NCBI GenBank assembly: GCA_026394015.1
Contig: JAPKZA010000208.1
Location: 11,564 to 51,295 of the forward strand
Source of the DNA: Acidobacteriota bacterium
GTDB lineage: Bacteria; Acidobacteriota; Terriglobia; Bryobacterales; Bryobacteraceae
Reading direction: 5' to 3'
Length of the DNA stretch: 39,732 nt
A program made the translations under genes and the position numbers. A model generated the notes under the pieces. That model worked only from the letters and a program-made list of their open reading frames with translations, ran no database searches and was not told the origin of the DNA. Position 1 is the first letter of the stretch. Each line of letters opens with the position of its first letter. Below are positions 17,227 through 29,079 of the stretch, piece by piece.

Positions 17227-18837
17227 TCAAGATCCTGGCCGAAACTCTGGTTTGATGGCTTCCCGCAATCGACTCGCCACCGCTTGATGTCCGCGGCTCT
17301 CCGCCCACGCGAGTGGGGTAGCCCAATCCTCGTCGTCAGGGTGTGCCGCCAAGGCACCGTGCTGGAGGAGAAAATCGACCATATCGAGTCTCCCTTCGCG
17401 GGCGGCCCAACCTAATGGCCGGGAGCGCCACTCGTCGTCGCGGGCTTCGAGCTCGGCGCCGTGGCGGAGGTAGAGCGCCGCGTTGAGCAGGTCGCCCCGG
17501 CCGGCCTGCTCATGCAGCGGCGTTGTCCCTTGCCAGTCTCGATGGCTTGGGCTCATGCCGGCGTCAAACAGGTATTCGGTTAACTCTCGGGTCGCGGCTC
17601 CGGCGCAGTGAACCTGGATCGAGAGCGCCGGCCACCGTGCAATGACCATCCTGACGAACTCGTCGTGCCCGTTCTCGGCCGCGCTGGCCACCGCCTTGGG
17701 GTGCGCCGGAATCTCCGGCATCGCCGCAAGCGCGTCGGCATCGCCGTAGTAAGCGATCAGGTGAATCGGTCGTTTCGCGCCGTAACTTCGGAGTAACTCG
17801 ATCATACGCTCATCCTTGTTTTGGATGGCTCGGCTGAGGCAGTCCGCCGAACTTTCGACGGCCGCGTTCGGGTCGGCCCCGTGCCGCAGCAGCAGGCGAG
17901 CGATGTCGTGCCAGCCGGCGGCGGCGGCTTCGTAGAGCGCGGCTCCGCGAGGCGCGATCCCCTCTTCGCGCAGGTTCGGATCGGCCCCGGCCGCGAGCAA
18001 AATCTCGACGACCTCTTTGCGCCCCCGCGCGGCTGCATTGCGCAGCGGCGAGCCGGAGCCGAGGTAGTAGGTCACATAGTCCACGGTTCGATTCGCCCGG
18101 CCCGGATCTTCGGCCAGCAACTGCTTCACCCGTGCCGCGTCGCCCAGGTAGGAAGCGGTGCAGATGTCCATCTCCGCTCCCCGGACGAGCAGGTGGCGAA
18201 GCATCTCTTCCGGTGTCGCCGCCGAATCGGCGTCGACATCGCGCCACCCTCGAAAGTGGTAATCCCCATTCACCAGTTGAAGGGGCCGGGCTCCGTCCGG
18301 TCGCTGGGTTTCTAGTCCGGCCCCCAATTCGAGCAACGCATCGACCCAATCGATCCGCCGCAGCAGGACCGCCCAATGAATCGCGCGGTTCCCGCGTTGA
18401 TCGGCGACGGCCAGCAGACCCGGCACCTGAAGCGCTCGCGCAAAGTCCCCGGCGCGCATCGCGGCGGCCATCTCCGCGCCTTCGGGGCAGATGCCGAATT
18501 TGTCCAGCAAATGGGCCTCCAACAGCCGCACCAGCGCGTCATGGTGACGTTCCCGGGCCATTCGTAGGAATCCGTCTCCAACGACCATATTGACCGCGTC
18601 GGCACCCTGCCCGAGTAGATACGCGGCCACCTCGAGTCGACCTTCCCGCACGGCGAAATGGAGCGGCGTCCGATAGGCGAAGCTGCAGTTGACAAGGGCC
18701 GGCCTGCATTCGACTAACTCACGAACCGTCGCCAAATCGCCGACGTCCGCTCCCCGCAGCATGGCCCAGACCTCCGCTCCGGTTCCGGGCGACCACTCTA
18801 GCTCCGCCATCGTCTCTAACGCAGATGGTTGTGTCAT
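17227..18837 (-). CDS. Ankyrin-repeat protein
   Basis: A 536-residue protein composed almost entirely of ankyrin repeats. At least seven are clear, including TPLHFAVREGRLEVAAYLL, RAIHWAVLLRRIDWVDALL, PLRNAAARGRKEVVEILL, LYEAAAAGWHDIARLLL, TPLHEQAGRGDLLNAALYL and PLGWAAREGRLDMVDFLL. No signal peptide or enzymatic domain is evident, so a cytoplasmic protein-binding role is likely. ATG 18837 was preferred over an in-frame start at 18894. A -10-like TATTCT lies eight bases before this ATG without a ribosome-binding site. It is divergent from the DUF5990 gene, 31 bp apart. Confidence 0.88.
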   Translation of the reverse strand: MTQPSALETMAELEWSPGTGAEVWAMLRGADVGDLATVRELVECRPALVNCSFAYRTPLHFAVREGRLEVAAYLLGQGADAVNMVVGDGFLRMARERHHDALVRLLEAHLLDKFGICPEGAEMAAAMRAGDFARALQVPGLLAVADQRGNRAIHWAVLLRRIDWVDALLELGAGLETQRPDGARPLQLVNGDYHFRGWRDVDADSAATPEEMLRHLLVRGAEMDICTASYLGDAARVKQLLAEDPGRANRTVDYVTYYLGSGSPLRNAAARGRKEVVEILLAAGADPNLREEGIAPRGAALYEAAAAGWHDIARLLLRHGADPNAAVESSADCLSRAIQNKDERMIELLRSYGAKRPIHLIAYYGDADALAAMPEIPAHPKAVASAAENGHDEFVRMVIARWPALSIQVHCAGAATRELTEYLFDAGMSPSHRDWQGTTPLHEQAGRGDLLNAALYLRHGAELEARDDEWRSRPLGWAAREGRLDMVDFLLQHGALAAHPDDEDWATPLAWAESRGHQAVASRLREAIKPEFRPGS

Positions 18838-18868
18838 AAACTCGTAGAATATACGCAACCTACTCCGT

Positions 18869-19267
18869 ATGGAAGCCCTGCTCACTCTCCACATTTCGCT
18901 CGTCGCCCCCCCGCCTGGAGTCGACTTCGGCGTGCAAACAGGTCGCGGAAACCGCTACGAAGCCGTGCAACTCCAGCGCTCCACCGGTGCCGATCTTTGC
19001 TTCACCGTCACCCTCCCCGCCAACCTCTCGGGCCCTTTCGTGCAAGGCCCCCCCGGCGCCAGATTTCTTTACCTTGACATCGGCTCTTACGCCGTCCAAA
19101 TCGATGCTCCTTGGTCCCGCCGCCTGAAAGTTCCCTTGAGCGGAATCACCCCCTTACTCGTCGGACCGCCGCCCCACCAGGTGGCAACCTCCATCGCTGG
19201 CACGGCTAAAGACGGGGGGCCCACTTGTGCCACGCCCAAACCCTTTGCCGGTTGGCACAGCCTATAG
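18869..19267 (+). CDS. DUF5990 family protein
   Basis: A 132-residue protein matching, from memory, the DUF5990 family: an N-terminal PPPGVDFGVQTGRGNRYEAV stretch, then LSGPFVQGPPGARFLYLDIG and WSRRLKVPLSGIT. The family is a small cytoplasmic protein of unknown function, often shown alone. The C-terminal ~25 residues (from about 108) are poorly conserved-looking, and the 3' 40 bp lie beyond the family core. The PQQ dehydrogenase gene begins 25 bp later. Confidence 0.75.
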   Translation: MEALLTLHISLVAPPPGVDFGVQTGRGNRYEAVQLQRSTGADLCFTVTLPANLSGPFVQGPPGARFLYLDIGSYAVQIDAPWSRRLKVPLSGITPLLVGPPPHQVATSIAGTAKDGGPTCATPKPFAGWHSL

Positions 19268-22711: not shown

Positions 22712-25700
22712 ATGGCCATCACAGATATCTTCATCACGCGCCCGGTGGCCACGACCTTGCTGATGGCCGGCGTGTTGGGCTTCGGCCTGATCAGCTACTT
22801 CTCGCTGCCGGTCAGCGACCTTCCGCCGGTGGAATACCCCACCATCCAAGTGACGGCCAGCCTGCCCGGGGCCAACCCCGATATCATGGCGTCGTCGGTC
22901 GCCACGCCCCTCGAAAAGGCGTTTTCGAACATCGCCGGGGTGGACAGCATGTCGTCGGCCAGCACGAACGGTTCGACCACCATTACGCTCCAATTCGACT
23001 TCAGTCGTACGATCGATTCCGCCGCCCAGGACGTGCAATCGGCTATATCTCGAGCCACCGGCGAACTCCCTCGCAATATGCTCGCGCCGCCTTCGTTCAA
23101 GAAGGTGAACCCGGCTTCTCGACCGGTTCTTTATCTGGCGCTGACCTCGGAGACGATGACCTTGGCGGCCCTCAACGAGTTTGCCGAAAACCTGATCGGT
23201 CGACGCGTTTCGATGGTGAACGGGGTCGCGCAGACCTCCGTTTTTGGGGGCCAAAAATACGCCGTCCGCGTGGAGGCCGACCCGGACCGTCTGGCCGCGC
23301 GCCAAGTGGGTTTGGAAGATATTCGAAGTGCCCTCGCGCAGCAGAACGTCAATCTGCCGGCCGGTTCCATGCACGGGATCACCAAAGCCTATACGGTGCA
23401 GTCGAACAGCCAACTCACGGCCGCCGACCAGTTTCGTCCCATGATCGTGGCCTTTCGCAACGGCAATCCGGTGCGTCTGGAAGACGTCGCCGTCGTCCGT
23501 GATAGCGTGAATTTCGAACGGAGTGTCTTCTGGGTGAATGGGAAGCCCGGCATGATTGTCGCGGTGCAAAAGCAGCCCGACGCGAACACGGTGGCGGTCG
23601 TGGACGCGGTGAAGGAGTTGCTGCCGAACCTGCGTCAGAACATGCCGGCCGGCATCTCGCTGCTCGTGGAATTCGATGCCTCCCGGAACATCCGCGAATC
23701 CATTGAAGACGTGAAGTTCACTCTGCTGCTGACCATCGCGCTCGTGATCCTGGTCATCTTCGTGTTCCTGCGCAACCTCCCGGCCACCCTCATTGCCAGC
23801 CTCGCGGTGCCGCTCTCGCTGCTCGGCACCTTCGGCGTCATGAAGCTGCTCAACTTCACGATCGACTCGCTTTCCATGATGGCGATGACGCTATCGGTCG
23901 GCTTCGTCGTCGACGACGCGATCGTAATGATGGAGAACATCGTTCGCCACATGGAGATGGGAAAGCCGCGGCTGCAAGCGGCCTATGAAGGGGCTCGCGA
24001 AGTTGGATTCACCATTGTCTCGATGACCATTTCGTTGGTCGCCGTGTTCATCCCGGTGCTGTTTCTCGATGGCATCATCGGGCGCCTGCTGCGCGAGTTC
24101 GCCGTCACGATCGCCGTGGCCGTGCTGATCTCCGGGCTCATCTCGCTTTCGTTGACGCCGATGCTCTGCAGCCGGTTCCTGAGTCATCACCAAACCCATG
24201 GGCGGGTCTTCAATCTGTTCGAACAGTTTTTCGACGGCATGAACCGCCTCTACCAGACGACGCTGCGCTTCACGTTGCGCCACCGTTTTGCCACCTTGCT
24301 CCTCACGCTCGTCACCACCGTCATCACCGGCTGGCTCTTCGTCGTGATGCCGAAAAGCTTCGTTCCCGTCGTGGATAGCGGCATGGTGTTCGGCGGCACC
24401 GAAGCCGCGCAGGATACGTCCTTCGACGAAACGGTCCGCCTGCAAAAGCAGGTGATGAGCATCGTCCAAAAGAACAAATGGGTGAGCCAGTTCGGCACCG
24501 GAGCCAACACCCAGAACAATGGGTTTCTCTTCATCCACTTCACTCACGACCCCGTTCGTCCGCACGCCACCGCTATCGTCGCCGACCTGCAAAAGCAGTT
24601 CGCGCAGATCCCCGGCTTCTCGGTCTTCCTGCAGCCACCCCCGATGCTGAGCCTGGGGCAGAACGAGTCTCGCTACCAATACTCGGTGGCGCTGCAGGAC
24701 GCCGACACGGCCGCGCTCTACCAGTGGGCTCCCAAGCTGGAAGCCAAGCTCCGAACCGTGCCGGCGCTGGCGGACGTCTATAGCGACCTGCAACTGAATA
24801 ACCCCCGGGTCAATGTCGACATTGATCGCGACCGCGCCCTCGCCCTGGGCGTCACCCCGGAGCAGATTGCGAACACGCTCTACGACGCTTACGGCAACCG
24901 CCGCGTCTCTACCATCAGCGCTCCCGCCAATGAGTACGACGTCATTCTGGAAGTGCTGCCGGAGTTCCGCCAGGACCCGGCCGGGCTATCGAAGCTCTTC
25001 ATCCGATCGACGAACAACAAGCTGGTACCGCTGTCGGCGGTGACCCGCGAACGGCAAGGAGTGGCCCCGCTGAGCGTCAATCACATCGGCCAGCTTCCCG
25101 CCGTCAATTTGCAGTTCAACGCCAAGCCCGGCTATTCGCTGAGCCAGGTGACCGAGCAGGTGGATGAGGCGGCTAAAGAGATCGGCTTGCCGGACACCAT
25201 GTCGTTCTCCTATCAAGGCACGGCTTCGGCGTTTCAAAAGTCCGTCGGTGGTCTGGCGATCTTGCTCGCCATCGCGATTCTGGTCATTTATCTCGTGCTG
25301 GGCGTGTTGTACGAGAGCTTCATTCACCCGATCACGATTCTTTCGGGCCTGCCGTCGGCGGGCCTGGGCGCGGTCATCACGTTGCTGCTGTTTAAGGACG
25401 ATCTCAACCTGTTTTCGTTTGTCGGGATCATCTTGCTGATTGGCATCGTGAAGAAGAACGCGATCATGATGGTGGACTTTGCGATCATGGCGCGGCGCGA
25501 GGGAAGCCCGGCCGAAGCCGCGATTTTCGAAGGATGCGTACAGCGTTTTCGACCCATCATGATGACCACGATGTGCGCGCTGCTCGGGACGTTGCCGATT
25601 GCGGTTGGCTACGGGGCCGGGGCGGAATCCCGTCGCCCGCTGGGGTTGGCGGTGGTGGGCGGTCTACTGGTTTCGCAGTTGCTGACCCTGTACATCACGC

Positions 25701-25906
25701 CCGTGATCTACCTCTATTTGGAAAAGCTCACCGGAGCAGGGCCGACGCCGCGGAGCAGAATGGCCGAACCCACCAGACCCGCGGCCAGCGACCCGGCCAA
25801 GATCCCCAGCTTCGCCCGGGCGAGCAACTCGGCATCGGAGAACGCGAGTGCGCCGATGAACAGCGACATCGTAAACCCGATCCCGCCCAGCCACCCGGCC
25901 CCGTGA
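22712..25906 (+). CDS. RND efflux pump permease (AcrB/HAE1 family)
   Basis: A 1064-residue resistance-nodulation-division transporter, proton-driven. It begins MAITDIFITRPVATTLLMAG, has two large periplasmic loops, and carries the proton-relay motifs: paired Asp in VGFVVDDAIVMMENI and Lys in GIVKKNAIMMVDFA. Last helix and the typical TPVIYLYLEKL end near residue 1005. The final ~59 residues are a Pro/Ser/Ala-rich tail encoded antisense to nhaA. No outer-membrane factor (TolC/OprM) gene is in the window, so the channel must come from elsewhere. Substrates cannot be predicted. Confidence 0.95.
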   Translation: MAITDIFITRPVATTLLMAGVLGFGLISYFSLPVSDLPPVEYPTIQVTASLPGANPDIMASSVATPLEKAFSNIAGVDSMSSASTNGSTTITLQFDFSRTIDSAAQDVQSAISRATGELPRNMLAPPSFKKVNPASRPVLYLALTSETMTLAALNEFAENLIGRRVSMVNGVAQTSVFGGQKYAVRVEADPDRLAARQVGLEDIRSALAQQNVNLPAGSMHGITKAYTVQSNSQLTAADQFRPMIVAFRNGNPVRLEDVAVVRDSVNFERSVFWVNGKPGMIVAVQKQPDANTVAVVDAVKELLPNLRQNMPAGISLLVEFDASRNIRESIEDVKFTLLLTIALVILVIFVFLRNLPATLIASLAVPLSLLGTFGVMKLLNFTIDSLSMMAMTLSVGFVVDDAIVMMENIVRHMEMGKPRLQAAYEGAREVGFTIVSMTISLVAVFIPVLFLDGIIGRLLREFAVTIAVAVLISGLISLSLTPMLCSRFLSHHQTHGRVFNLFEQFFDGMNRLYQTTLRFTLRHRFATLLLTLVTTVITGWLFVVMPKSFVPVVDSGMVFGGTEAAQDTSFDETVRLQKQVMSIVQKNKWVSQFGTGANTQNNGFLFIHFTHDPVRPHATAIVADLQKQFAQIPGFSVFLQPPPMLSLGQNESRYQYSVALQDADTAALYQWAPKLEAKLRTVPALADVYSDLQLNNPRVNVDIDRDRALALGVTPEQIANTLYDAYGNRRVSTISAPANEYDVILEVLPEFRQDPAGLSKLFIRSTNNKLVPLSAVTRERQGVAPLSVNHIGQLPAVNLQFNAKPGYSLSQVTEQVDEAAKEIGLPDTMSFSYQGTASAFQKSVGGLAILLAIAILVIYLVLGVLYESFIHPITILSGLPSAGLGAVITLLLFKDDLNLFSFVGIILLIGIVKKNAIMMVDFAIMARREGSPAEAAIFEGCVQRFRPIMMTTMCALLGTLPIAVGYGAGAESRRPLGLAVVGGLLVSQLLTLYITPVIYLYLEKLTGAGPTPRSRMAEPTRPAASDPAKIPSFARASNSASENASAPMNSDIVNPIPPSHPAP

Positions 25907-27072
25907 ACGCTCGTCCACGATACGCCGTCGGGCAGACTCGCCCATCCAGACTTCACCGCTAACCACGAAAGCAGGGTGATGCCGATTGGCTTGCCGAGTA
26001 AGAGTCCAATGGCGACGCCGAGGGTGACCGGTTCGGCTGCGCGACTCGCAAGGTCCCCGCCGAGCTCCACGCCCGCGTTCGCGAAGGCAAAGGCCGGCAT
26101 GATCAGGAAGGTTACCCAAGGGTGCAGCGCTTCGTTGAAGCGGAACAGGGGCGGTTGCGCTTGCTCACAGGCGCCCTCCAAGGCCTCGATGGCCACCTGC
26201 TGCTCTTCGTCGTTCAGTGGGCCTTTCTCGCGATCGGCGCAGTGGTCCAGGCGCTGGATAATGGTTCGAATCTGGTGGAGAAACGCGGGGACGTCGAGAT
26301 AGGTTCGCGACGGAATCGTCAGCGCCAGGATGACTCCGGCGATGGTGGCATGGACGCCCGAGTGCAGCACCGCCAACCAGAGCGCGATGCCAAGCAGCGC
26401 ATACGGCAGCGGGTGGCGGACGCCCAGGCGGTTCGCCGCCAGAAGCGAAACCACGCAGACGCCGGCCGCGGCAATCCCTAGCCAGGCGATGTTCGCGGTG
26501 TAGAAGACCGCGATTACCAACACGGCCGCGATGTCGTCCACAATGGCGAGGGCCGTTAGAAACACCTTGAGCCCCAGCGGCACGCGGTCGCCGAGGAGCG
26601 CCATGATGCCGATGACGAAGGCGATATCGGTGGCCATCGGGATGCCCCATCCATCGGCGCCGGGCCTTCCCCAATTGAACGCCGTGTAGAGCAAGGCGGG
26701 GACAAGCACGCCCCCCAGCGCCCCGAAGATGGGTAAGGCGGCCTGTCGCGGAGACGCGAGTTCACCGACCAGCAACTCTCGTTTGATCTCGAGCCCGACG
26801 ACGAGAAAGAAGAGCGCCATCAGCCCATCGTTCACCCAGAAATGAAGGTCGTGATCCATGGCCTGGCCCGCGAAGCTCACGGCGAGTTTGGTGTGCCAAA
26901 GGCTCGCGTAGCTAGCAGCCCAGGGCGAGTTCACCCAGATCAAGGCGATCGCGGTACACAGCAGCAGCAGGATACCGCCGGAGGTCTCCCGAGCGGCAAA
27001 CTCTTGGAACGGGCGGAGCAAGGGGCGGATGGGGGTGTCCGCGACTGTCTTTAGGGTATTGGGTTTGCTCAT
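25714..27072 (-). CDS. nhaA: Na+/H+ antiporter NhaA
   Basis: A 452-residue NhaA with about 12 membrane segments. Signature segments are MALFFLVVGLEIKRELL, the ion-binding Asp pair in LAIVDDIAAVLVIAVFYT, and MATDIAF before it. It exports Na+ or Li+ in exchange for protons for pH and sodium balance. GGAGGTGG gives a strong ribosome-binding site for ATG 27072. Its last 193 bp overlap the RND pump gene on the other strand, including its final membrane helix (KLGILAGSLAAGLVGSAILL). It lies 41 bp downstream of the redoxin gene. Confidence 0.95.
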   Translation of the reverse strand: MSKPNTLKTVADTPIRPLLRPFQEFAARETSGGILLLLCTAIALIWVNSPWAASYASLWHTKLAVSFAGQAMDHDLHFWVNDGLMALFFLVVGLEIKRELLVGELASPRQAALPIFGALGGVLVPALLYTAFNWGRPGADGWGIPMATDIAFVIGIMALLGDRVPLGLKVFLTALAIVDDIAAVLVIAVFYTANIAWLGIAAAGVCVVSLLAANRLGVRHPLPYALLGIALWLAVLHSGVHATIAGVILALTIPSRTYLDVPAFLHQIRTIIQRLDHCADREKGPLNDEEQQVAIEALEGACEQAQPPLFRFNEALHPWVTFLIMPAFAFANAGVELGGDLASRAAEPVTLGVAIGLLLGKPIGITLLSWLAVKSGWASLPDGVSWTSVHGAGWLGGIGFTMSLFIGALAFSDAELLARAKLGILAGSLAAGLVGSAILLRGVGPAPVSFSK

Positions 27073-27113: not shown

Positions 27114-28232
27114 TCATTTCTTTGGCGAGAGCCGCGGTGGACTCAGTTCGAGTGCGGGGTAGTAATCGGTGGTCGACTTCTGGAACTTCTCCATCCAACG
27201 TTTGCCCGCATCCGACGAAAAGCTCCAATCCTGCCGGTGATAGTTCCAGCTTTCCGGATTGAGCTGTTGGGCGTGTTCAAACCACTTTTGGGCGAGGTCG
27301 GGCTGGCCTTTCTGGCGGAGGGCGACGGCGAGTTTGAACGACGCTTCGGCCTCTGTCTCGGCCGGGCTGCGCTCCTTAACGCGACGTTGGTAGTCTTCGT
27401 CGGAGACGACGAATTCGCTCTTGGGGCCTTTGGCGACCCAATCGCGGAGCGCGGCTACATAAGCATCGCCCTGGGTCCGGATGACCTTGCCCCCGATCTT
27501 GAGTTCCTGGTTCTTCGGGGACGCGGTCTCGGCGGGACGCACGATGCGGCCTTGTTCGTCGATCCAAATCCCGGCGGGGACGTTCGTGAGTTGATAGGCG
27601 GAGCTGATCGTATGCGCGGTATCGACGAGCGTGGTGTAGGTGGCTTTGGCGGCGTCGTACCACTTGCCGGCGGCCGCTTCCCCGCCCGTGTCCTGCGCGG
27701 CGGCGACGAGTTCAAAGCCTTGGGGCTTCAGTTCCTGATAAATGGTCTGCCAGCCTGGCAGATCGAGGCGGCACCCTCACCAGGAGGCCCAACTGAGCAG
27801 GAGGATTTTGCGGCCGCGGAAGTCCGTAAGGCGGACGGGCTGGCCCTTGCGGTCGGCCACGGCGAAGTCTGGAGCGACGCGGGATTGCAGAAAGCTCGAG
27901 CGGAGGACGGGCATTTCGCCTAAGCTCCAGAGGCTCCCTTCGTGGACGAAGGCTTGGCGTACCTTGCGGGCGAAGCCGGTGAGATTGAGCCAGTTTCCGT
28001 GTTTGAGCTGCTTGGGTAGCGGGATGCAGAGGTCGGCGCGACAGGCCCCTTGGGGCTTGACCTCGAAACCGTTGATGGCCGGGAGCGCGGAGGTGGGGAC
28101 CCAGAGGTCGCCGTTTTCGAGCCGGCTATTAGGGAGGGCGGTCTCGCGATCGTCGTAGAGGACGGTGGCGGTTGCCGCCGGCGCACCCCAAAGGGTCGTG
28201 GTGGCCCAAAACAATGCGCGGCGGGTGATCAT
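27114..28232 (-). CDS. Redoxin with in-frame UGA, probable selenoprotein (UGC active site)
   Basis: A 372-residue TlpA/AhpC-like redoxin if the UGA at 27779-27777 is read as selenocysteine (residue 152). The frame is open on both sides. MITRRALFWATTTLWGAPAATA is a signal peptide with paired Arg; an N-terminal domain with C64 and C69 follows; then a thioredoxin-type domain (APDFAVADRKGQPVRLTDFRG, ILLLSWASW-U152-G-C154-RLDLPGWQ, later LTNVPAGIWIDEQGR) and a TPR-like C-terminal helix region. Homologues I recall have Cys at this place (WASWCGCR). Alternative readings are a TGC-to-TGA nonsense mutation or sequencing error, giving two fragments. The hairpin after the UGA and the conserved, intact downstream frame favour Sec. 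Likely periplasmic thiol/peroxide reductase. Confidence 0.8.
27746..27762 (-). promoter_or_regulatory. Candidate bacterial SECIS hairpin
   Basis: On the minus strand TCTGCCA-GGC-TGGCAGA is a perfect 7-bp stem with a three-base loop containing two G. The stem begins 14 bases after the UGA and the loop lies 21 bases after it, inside the 16-37 base range typical of bacterial SECIS elements, which carry a G in the apical loop for SelB. It overlaps the codons for LPGWQ, so part of the pairing could be a by-product of coding. Confidence 0.7.
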
Positions 28233-28281
28233 GCTGCCATTGTAGTAGCTTCGGGCCGTGGGCTGTGATAGCGTGCAGCCT

Positions 28282-29079
28282 ATGTTGCGGATTCTTATTG
28301 TTGGTTCGTTACTGGCCGCGAGCGCATGGGGGCAGGGCGCGCCTCCCCTTTCCGCGGAGGCGAAGGCAGCCTTCTTGCTGAACGCGAGCGTTAAGGAAAA
28401 GCACCCGGCCAAGAAAGGCGTAACCGGCACCATGCGCGTGACGATGACCGACGGGAAAATCACTCACGACGCCAGTGTCCAGACGATCGATGAGTTTAAG
28501 AATCGATTCGAGACTCCGAACGGGGTCGAGATGAATTTTCAGGACTCCTACAAGCTCAACATCGCGGCCTATCGGCTTGGAAAAATGTTGGGGATGGATT
28601 CGATGACTCCGGTATCGGTGGAGCGGATGTATGAAGGCAAAGTGGCTTCGTACACGTGGTGGGTGGAAGACATCCAAATGGACGAAGTCGACCGGATGAA
28701 GAAGAAGATTGAAGCGCCGGACAAGGACCGATGGTCGAGGCAGTATCTGATCATGAAGGTGTTCGATCAACTGATCTACAACATGGACCGGAACGCCCAG
28801 AACATGATGTACGACAAGGAATGGGGCATGTGGCTGATTGACCATTCCCGGTCGTTCCGTCGCCATGCGAAGCTGCTCGACCCGAAGATTCTCACGAAGT
28901 GCGACCGGGTGCTGCTTGAGAATCTGAAGTCGCTGCAGGAAGACGACGTGCGGAAGCAGATGGGCCGATGGGTGGACAACATGCAAATCAAGGGCTTGAT
29001 GGCTCGTCGCAAACTGCTGGTGGACCACTTTGAAGCCAAGGGCGAAGCCGCGCTATACGATTTCCTGCCGAAGCTATAG
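28282..29079 (+). CDS. Exported Fam20C/HipA-like kinase-fold protein
   Basis: A 265-residue protein with a signal peptide (MLRILIVGSLLAASAWG). Residues 88-118 (SYKLNIAAYRLGKMLGMDSM... and VSVERMYEG) resemble the helix and following strand of Fam20C-like kinases. FDQLIYNMDRNAQN (161-174) matches the catalytic loop pattern NMDR(H/N)xx, with Asp 169, and WLIDHSRSF (184-192) fits the metal-binding Asp segment (Asp 187). The usual glutamate of the helix appears as Asn 93, so ATP handling may differ or it could be a pseudokinase. ATG 28282 was chosen over 28258 for the signal peptide. It is divergent from the redoxin gene and tail-to-tail with a phosphatase gene. Confidence 0.65.
   Translation: MLRILIVGSLLAASAWGQGAPPLSAEAKAAFLLNASVKEKHPAKKGVTGTMRVTMTDGKITHDASVQTIDEFKNRFETPNGVEMNFQDSYKLNIAAYRLGKMLGMDSMTPVSVERMYEGKVASYTWWVEDIQMDEVDRMKKKIEAPDKDRWSRQYLIMKVFDQLIYNMDRNAQNMMYDKEWGMWLIDHSRSFRRHAKLLDPKILTKCDRVLLENLKSLQEDDVRKQMGRWVDNMQIKGLMARRKLLVDHFEAKGEAALYDFLPKL

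Follow-up and report, generated by a model that had tools for sequence, protein, structure and literature searches.

The stretch of DNA analysed here (39,732 nucleotides; hereafter the window) contains what we consider, with a probability of about 0.96, to be an intact bacterial selenoprotein gene, in which a UGA is read as selenocysteine (Sec) and whose product is a ResA/TlpA-like redox protein. The internal stop almost certainly specifies a Sec that forms part of the active site of this thioredoxin-fold protein. Over the coordinates given in Table 1 the frame translates as 151 codons, a single TGA, 220 codons and a TGA stop, exactly as the original prediction had it, and the candidate comprises 372 residues when the internal UGA is counted as Sec. 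The surroundings of this UGA read SWASW-UGA-GCRLDLPGWQ. In the program-made list of open reading frames the gene is divided into two, at 27777..28463 and 27114..27542, both on the minus strand. The original prediction had also placed the UGA in the thioredoxin active site of a redoxin and proposed Sec at residue 152. The Pfam family AhpC-TSA, the NCBIfam model NF041054 and an alignment to the structure 2yp6 agree on the redoxin and its active site; a conserved UGA, the presence of Sec machinery genes and a SECIS-like hairpin are in favour of Sec. From the machinery genes, the conservation and the covariation in the hairpin we infer that Sec is actually inserted at codon 152. The host genome amounts to 7.9 Mb in 574 contigs and is estimated to be 97% complete.

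Table 1. Features of the candidate selenoprotein gene, in window coordinates
Feature	Position	Strand	Evidence
Selenoprotein gene, NF041054-like (ResA-like WAxxUGC motif-containing protein)	27114..28232	-	frame, orthologues, NCBIfam match
Predicted export signal, twin Arg (residues 4-5) and hydrophobic stretch, Tat-like	28167..28232	-	by eye, inference
N-terminal small alpha/beta region, residues about 22-105, no Pfam match	27918..28169	-	model, Pfam, alignment
Cys64..Cys69 codons (CX4C), invariant in 16 aligned proteins, Sec and Cys forms	28026..28043	-	alignment
Redoxin / AhpC-TSA domain, residues 119-231, ResA/TlpA-like	27540..27878	-	Pfam, alignment, model, fold search
In-frame UGA, codon 152, predicted Sec at the first Cys of a ResA-type CxxC	27777..27779	-	frame, homologues, structure alignment
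Cys154 codon, predicted resolving residue; motif Sec-Gly-Cys, Pro of CGPC missing	27771..27773	-	conservation, 2yp6 alignment
SECIS-like hairpin: 6-bp stem UCUGCC/GGCAGA, loop AGGCU, starting 14 bases 3' of the UGA	27746..27762	-	compensatory exchanges among Sec genes; pairing in part dictated by coding
TPR-like helical hairpin, residues 295-327	27252..27350	-	Pfam below gathering score, model

The conservation of the UGA was analysed at several taxonomic depths. A full-length orthologue was found in only 3 of the 61 genomes of the family (the host itself and two others, at 69% and 52% identity); in each of them a TGA is the only internal stop. A profile built from these three sequences and searched at E <= 1e-25 identified orthologues in 20 of the 257 genomes of the order, the host included. 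All 20 contain exactly one internal stop, which is again TGA, and W-UGA-GC lies at the same place in every one of them. Genomes assembled independently of one another share this UGA at identities as low as about 50%, and both halves of the protein are conserved.

To these were added more distant relatives, obtained from a scan of named genome contigs. It returned 16 loci, one of which (L073) was spurious and was discarded. In the 15 real relatives the position of the UGA is always occupied by UGA or Cys: it is TGA in seven (four Acidobacteriota and the three Gammaproteobacteria L067, L068 and L072) and TGC in eight (three Planctomycetota, two Actinomycetota, one Cellvibrionales and two further bacteria), a proportion skewed towards Cys because one of the two peptide patterns required Cys there. 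The motif WASWCGCR, which the original prediction gave for homologues, is found exactly in L069 and L070. The search with NF041054 at E <= 1e-25 gave matches in 25 of 396 Acidobacteriota genomes and in none of 14 control genomes. Of the 25 matches, 24 had a readable active site, with UGA in 23 genomes (25 sites) and TGC in one; no readable active site was present in the remaining match (L121, genome G399). The 25 sites result from G419 and G344, two Acidobacteriota genomes in which the family is represented twice, each copy with a UGA (L109, L122; L113, L123). The counts of the contig scan, the order-level search and the NF041054 search overlap, since they share genomes (for example L059/L015, L061/L016 and L111/window). 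A tree of 47 Sec and 9 Cys rows was constructed, from which the duplicates or near-duplicates L015, L016, L058, L074, L076 and L111, the fragment L090 and the spurious L073 had been omitted. It requires four changes of label, three of them forced by starred branches, so Sec and Cys were exchanged more than once, in a direction that the root and the long branches L120 and L071 leave unfixed.

The machinery for Sec insertion is complete in the host genome. A tRNA-Sec(UCA) was detected with a score of 74.0 bits (tRNA-SeC(tca) according to ARAGORN), together with selB (354 bits), selA (454 bits) and selD (353 bits), all above their curated cut-offs; selB, selA and selD exceed these cut-offs in 2, 1 and 2 of 14 control genomes, respectively. 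The selD of the same genome (L093, contig C154, 5110-6018, plus strand) appears to be a selenoprotein gene as well: it has a single in-frame UGA, in the context GUASK, near the N-terminus of its TIGR00476 match (353 bits). As the tRNA-Sec model also responds to tRNA-Ser, at scores reaching about 53 bits, and gives some match in all 14 control genomes (five above cut-off), only clear matches were counted. By this measure tRNA-Sec is present in 17 of the 20 Sec genomes of the order, namely the three of the family search and 14 of the 17 further genomes, the latter at 64.9 bits or more. Among the other three, G208 (94% complete) has a borderline match of 54.6 bits with no ARAGORN gene, and tRNA-Sec was not found in G106 and G107 (88% and 79% complete). 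A clear tRNA-Sec is also present in all three gammaproteobacterial Sec genomes (60.1 to 76.7 bits), compared to one of eight Cys genomes (that of L063, 66.5 bits, called SeC by ARAGORN); the three Cys genomes that rank after it have tRNA-Ser as their best matches. Presence of tRNA-Sec alone is not specific for the gene, since 47 of the 61 family genomes have a tRNA-Sec above 63 bits and only three have the gene.

To characterize the hairpin downstream of the UGA, we examined synonymous positions and covariation, because the pairing is partly dictated by the coding of LPxWQ. We compared 29 distinct Sec 21-mers, drawn from 50 rows, with nine Cys genes; the spurious L073 and the duplicates L001, L016, L074, L076 and L111 were omitted, L001 being re-entered as the window. 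The outermost pair is U-A in 14 Sec sequences, C-G in 6 and U-G in 1 (21/29 paired), which was equalled in 1.25% of 2000 column shuffles. The second pair is C-G in 23 and U-A in 2 (25/29 paired), a value reached by no shuffle; three gammaproteobacterial genes are among those unpaired at this position. All 29 Sec sequences have G at the wobble position of the Leu/Val codon, versus 3 of the 9 Cys genes, and the pair of this base forms in 4 of these 9. As the sequences are related, such changes are not independent events. The hairpin of the window is equalled in 1.7% of synonymous recodings; over all genes this frequency ranges from 0.8% to 44% for Sec genes and from 9% to 85% for Cys genes, two sets which overlap. 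When the 42 or 60 bases that follow the UGA were folded as a whole, the result was uninformative (over the 42 bases, 51% of recodings are as stable as the window), and Rfam gave no match on the window at gathering scores. Judged from these comparisons, the assignment of the hairpin as a SECIS element is well supported though not proved.

One Cys form deserves separate mention. The Pirellulales gene L063 (5908-7086, plus strand) belongs to a genome with tRNA-Sec and retains a six-pair SECIS-like hairpin. SECIS-type remnants of Sec ancestors are described in PMC1794560, and the L063 hairpin and tRNA-Sec may be such a remnant. This reading is weak, because the Cys genes L069 and L070 can also form five of the six pairs in genomes without a clear tRNA-Sec.

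The protein itself was examined for domains, fold and invariant residues. Pfam identifies AhpC-TSA (E 1e-15) and Redoxin (E 4e-12). The nearest solved structures by sequence are the thioredoxin-family proteins 2yp6 (6.9e-14), 4hqz and 3kcm, and ResA was matched at 2.8e-12; in the alignment to 2yp6, CGPC stands opposite U-G-C, the Pro being absent. An AlphaFold2 model obtained with 16 sequences has a pLDDT of 89, residues 1-18 being of low confidence. In this model Sec152 immediately precedes the helix 154-171, and Cys64 and Cys69 are located on neighbouring predicted strands. ResA-type proteins make up most of the ten best Foldseek matches; the TM-scores are 0.74-0.81 when normalised by target length and about 0.3 by query length, the latter low because the redoxin part alone is matched. 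The predicted fold is that of a ResA-type thioredoxin, and the active-site spacing is not that of CxxC (or UxxC), UGC being one residue shorter. Across the 16 aligned proteins (the window and 15 relatives) the invariant residues include Cys64, Cys69, residue 152 (Sec or Cys), Cys154 and Pro219; the invariant NVP with Pro219 lies at the place expected for a cis-Pro loop and may correspond to it. The window protein and its close orthologues begin with a twin-Arg hydrophobic segment, starts of this kind having been favoured in the choice of start codon. The segment resembles a Tat signal. No signal was evident at the N-terminus of the gammaproteobacterial forms. The product is most likely an exported ResA/TlpA-like oxidoreductase.

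Other explanations of the UGA and of the protein were considered. The host is a draft genome of 574 contigs, in which a TGA could arise by sequencing or assembly error, or could be a true stop within a pseudogene. The same single UGA is found in 20 of 20 orthologues with both halves conserved, and again in the gammaproteobacterial L067, L068 and L072, so that the comparative data leave practically no room for error, pseudogene or plain stop. Some bacteria have a tRNA-Cys with a UCA anticodon, and decoding of the UGA as Cys would agree with the Cys occupying this place in homologues. Against it, every component of the Sec system is present, selD itself contains a UGA and the gene has a SECIS-like hairpin, and we regard Cys decoding as very improbable. 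A further possibility keeps the Sec and changes the enzyme: the protein would be a peroxiredoxin (AhpC/TSA-type peroxidase) with Sec as its peroxidatic residue. Peroxiredoxins have T or S three residues before that residue, whereas A149 stands three residues before Sec152 and the WASWxxC context is that of ResA/TlpA. The top NCBIfam models are WAxxUGC and ResA, and ResA-type proteins lead the fold matches, although peroxiredoxins do occur lower in the Foldseek list. With these observations set against the two Pfam matches and the name 'Prx-like (UGC-containing)' given to the motif class in the GOS paper (PMC2398784), a peroxiredoxin seems to us unlikely.

For the preferred reading, a selenoprotein of the ResA/TlpA type, the following mechanism can be proposed. 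SelB with Sec-tRNA(Sec) would decode the UGA as selenocysteine, aided by the hairpin downstream of it. The predicted product consists of a signal-like start, a small N-terminal region with CX4C, a redoxin domain with WASW-Sec-Gly-Cys and a C-terminal TPR-like part. Sec152, at the place of the attacking first Cys of the thioredoxin CxxC before helix 1, would attack its substrate, and Cys154 would resolve the intermediate into a Sec-Gly-Cys selenenylsulfide. Given these two positions, cycling between selenolate/thiol and Sec-Cys selenenylsulfide appears the most likely chemistry. Such a cycle could serve to reduce disulfides or to isomerise them, or else to reduce small oxidants, outside the cytoplasm, where the protein is probably located; fold and motif together suggest the thiol-disulfide oxidoreductase class. 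A bolder version, possible if rather doubtful, would combine a strained CxC selenenylsulfide with an electron relay through the N-terminal CX4C, making the protein an exported, self-contained, selenium-dependent disulfide isomerase/reductase of undescribed mechanism, in which lineages swap Sec and Cys.

We also compared the gene neighbourhoods, by clustering rough ORF predictions for part of the window with those of 17 other loci, orthologues known only with short flanks being omitted. No neighbour was conserved across these loci. Apart from the gene's own frames (on both strands), no cluster linked more than two loci, and the pairs were mostly close relatives; none of the 17 loci has a counterpart of the downstream nhaA. 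With no conserved neighbour, a more specific function has no support from the neighbourhood. Several features of the surrounding DNA were recorded. An AcrB-type transporter frame (22712-25906, plus strand) and the nhaA frame (25714-27072, minus strand) overlap tail to tail by 193 bases. The product of the divergent neighbour (28276-29076, plus strand) opens with a signal-like segment and shows weak similarity to Fam20C kinases (E 8e-4, below the Pfam cut-off). An ankyrin-repeat protein of 555 residues is encoded at 17230-18894 on the minus strand.

The kind of selenoprotein described here is already known, both from an NCBIfam model and from tables published since 2008. The match to NF041054 (WAxxUGC_long) has an E value of 1.3e-85 and scores 287.8 bits when Cys is written for U, while the genome search gives 276.2 bits, the curated cut-off being 300; the next NCBIfam matches are ResA and TlpA. 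All 16 aligned proteins match NF041054 at E <= 1e-5, and the WAxxUGC motif is present in the window as WASW-UGA-GC. Homology to NF041054 is certain, and formal membership falls just short of 300 bits, for which reason the window member may go unnamed or split in automatic annotation. In the literature, the GOS paper of 2008 (PMC2398784) tabulates 'Prx-like (UGC-containing)' with 46 selenoproteins and 855 Cys homologues, commoner in non-marine samples, and a Sargasso Sea table of 2005 (PMC1088965) has one 'UXC' Prx-like sequence. A 'UGC-containing Prx-like protein' is included in a 2022 review (PMC9312934) and a 'UGC-containing TlpA disulfide reductase family protein' in a 2026 review (PMC13188914). 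The entries for this class in PMC2398784, PMC9312934 and PMC13188914 give no tested function. Our literature search found nothing on WAxxUGC, on ResA-like selenoproteins or on acidobacterial redoxin selenoproteins. What the present analysis adds is a branch just below the NF041054 cut-off, the covariation in the hairpin, the contrast in tRNA-Sec between Sec and Cys genomes, and the Cys form L063. The gene adds a well-supported selenoprotein to the Bryobacteraceae branch of the Acidobacteriota. With a UGC motif, a further pair of Cys and naturally occurring Sec and Cys variants, it is a neat system for asking what Sec buys a ResA-like oxidoreductase.

Compared to NF041054, the window protein is alike over 304 residues (positions 8-323 of the 354 of the profile) and shares the W-A-x-x-Sec-Gly-Cys site. 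It differs in its score (287.8 bits, versus up to 492 bits in other Acidobacteriota members) and in having WASW where the best-scoring group has WAPY. With the UGC-containing Prx-like (PMC2398784) and TlpA (PMC13188914) classes, as these papers present them, it shares the redoxin/TlpA domain, the UGC motif and the existence of Cys homologues; motif and domain, rather than member sequences, suggest that the classes are the same family. The thiol-disulfide oxidoreductases ResA, TlpA and StoA have the fold and the WASW context in common with the window protein. Their active site is CxxC, whereas that of the window protein is UGC, one residue fewer and with Sec first, and the window protein has additional N-terminal and TPR-like parts.
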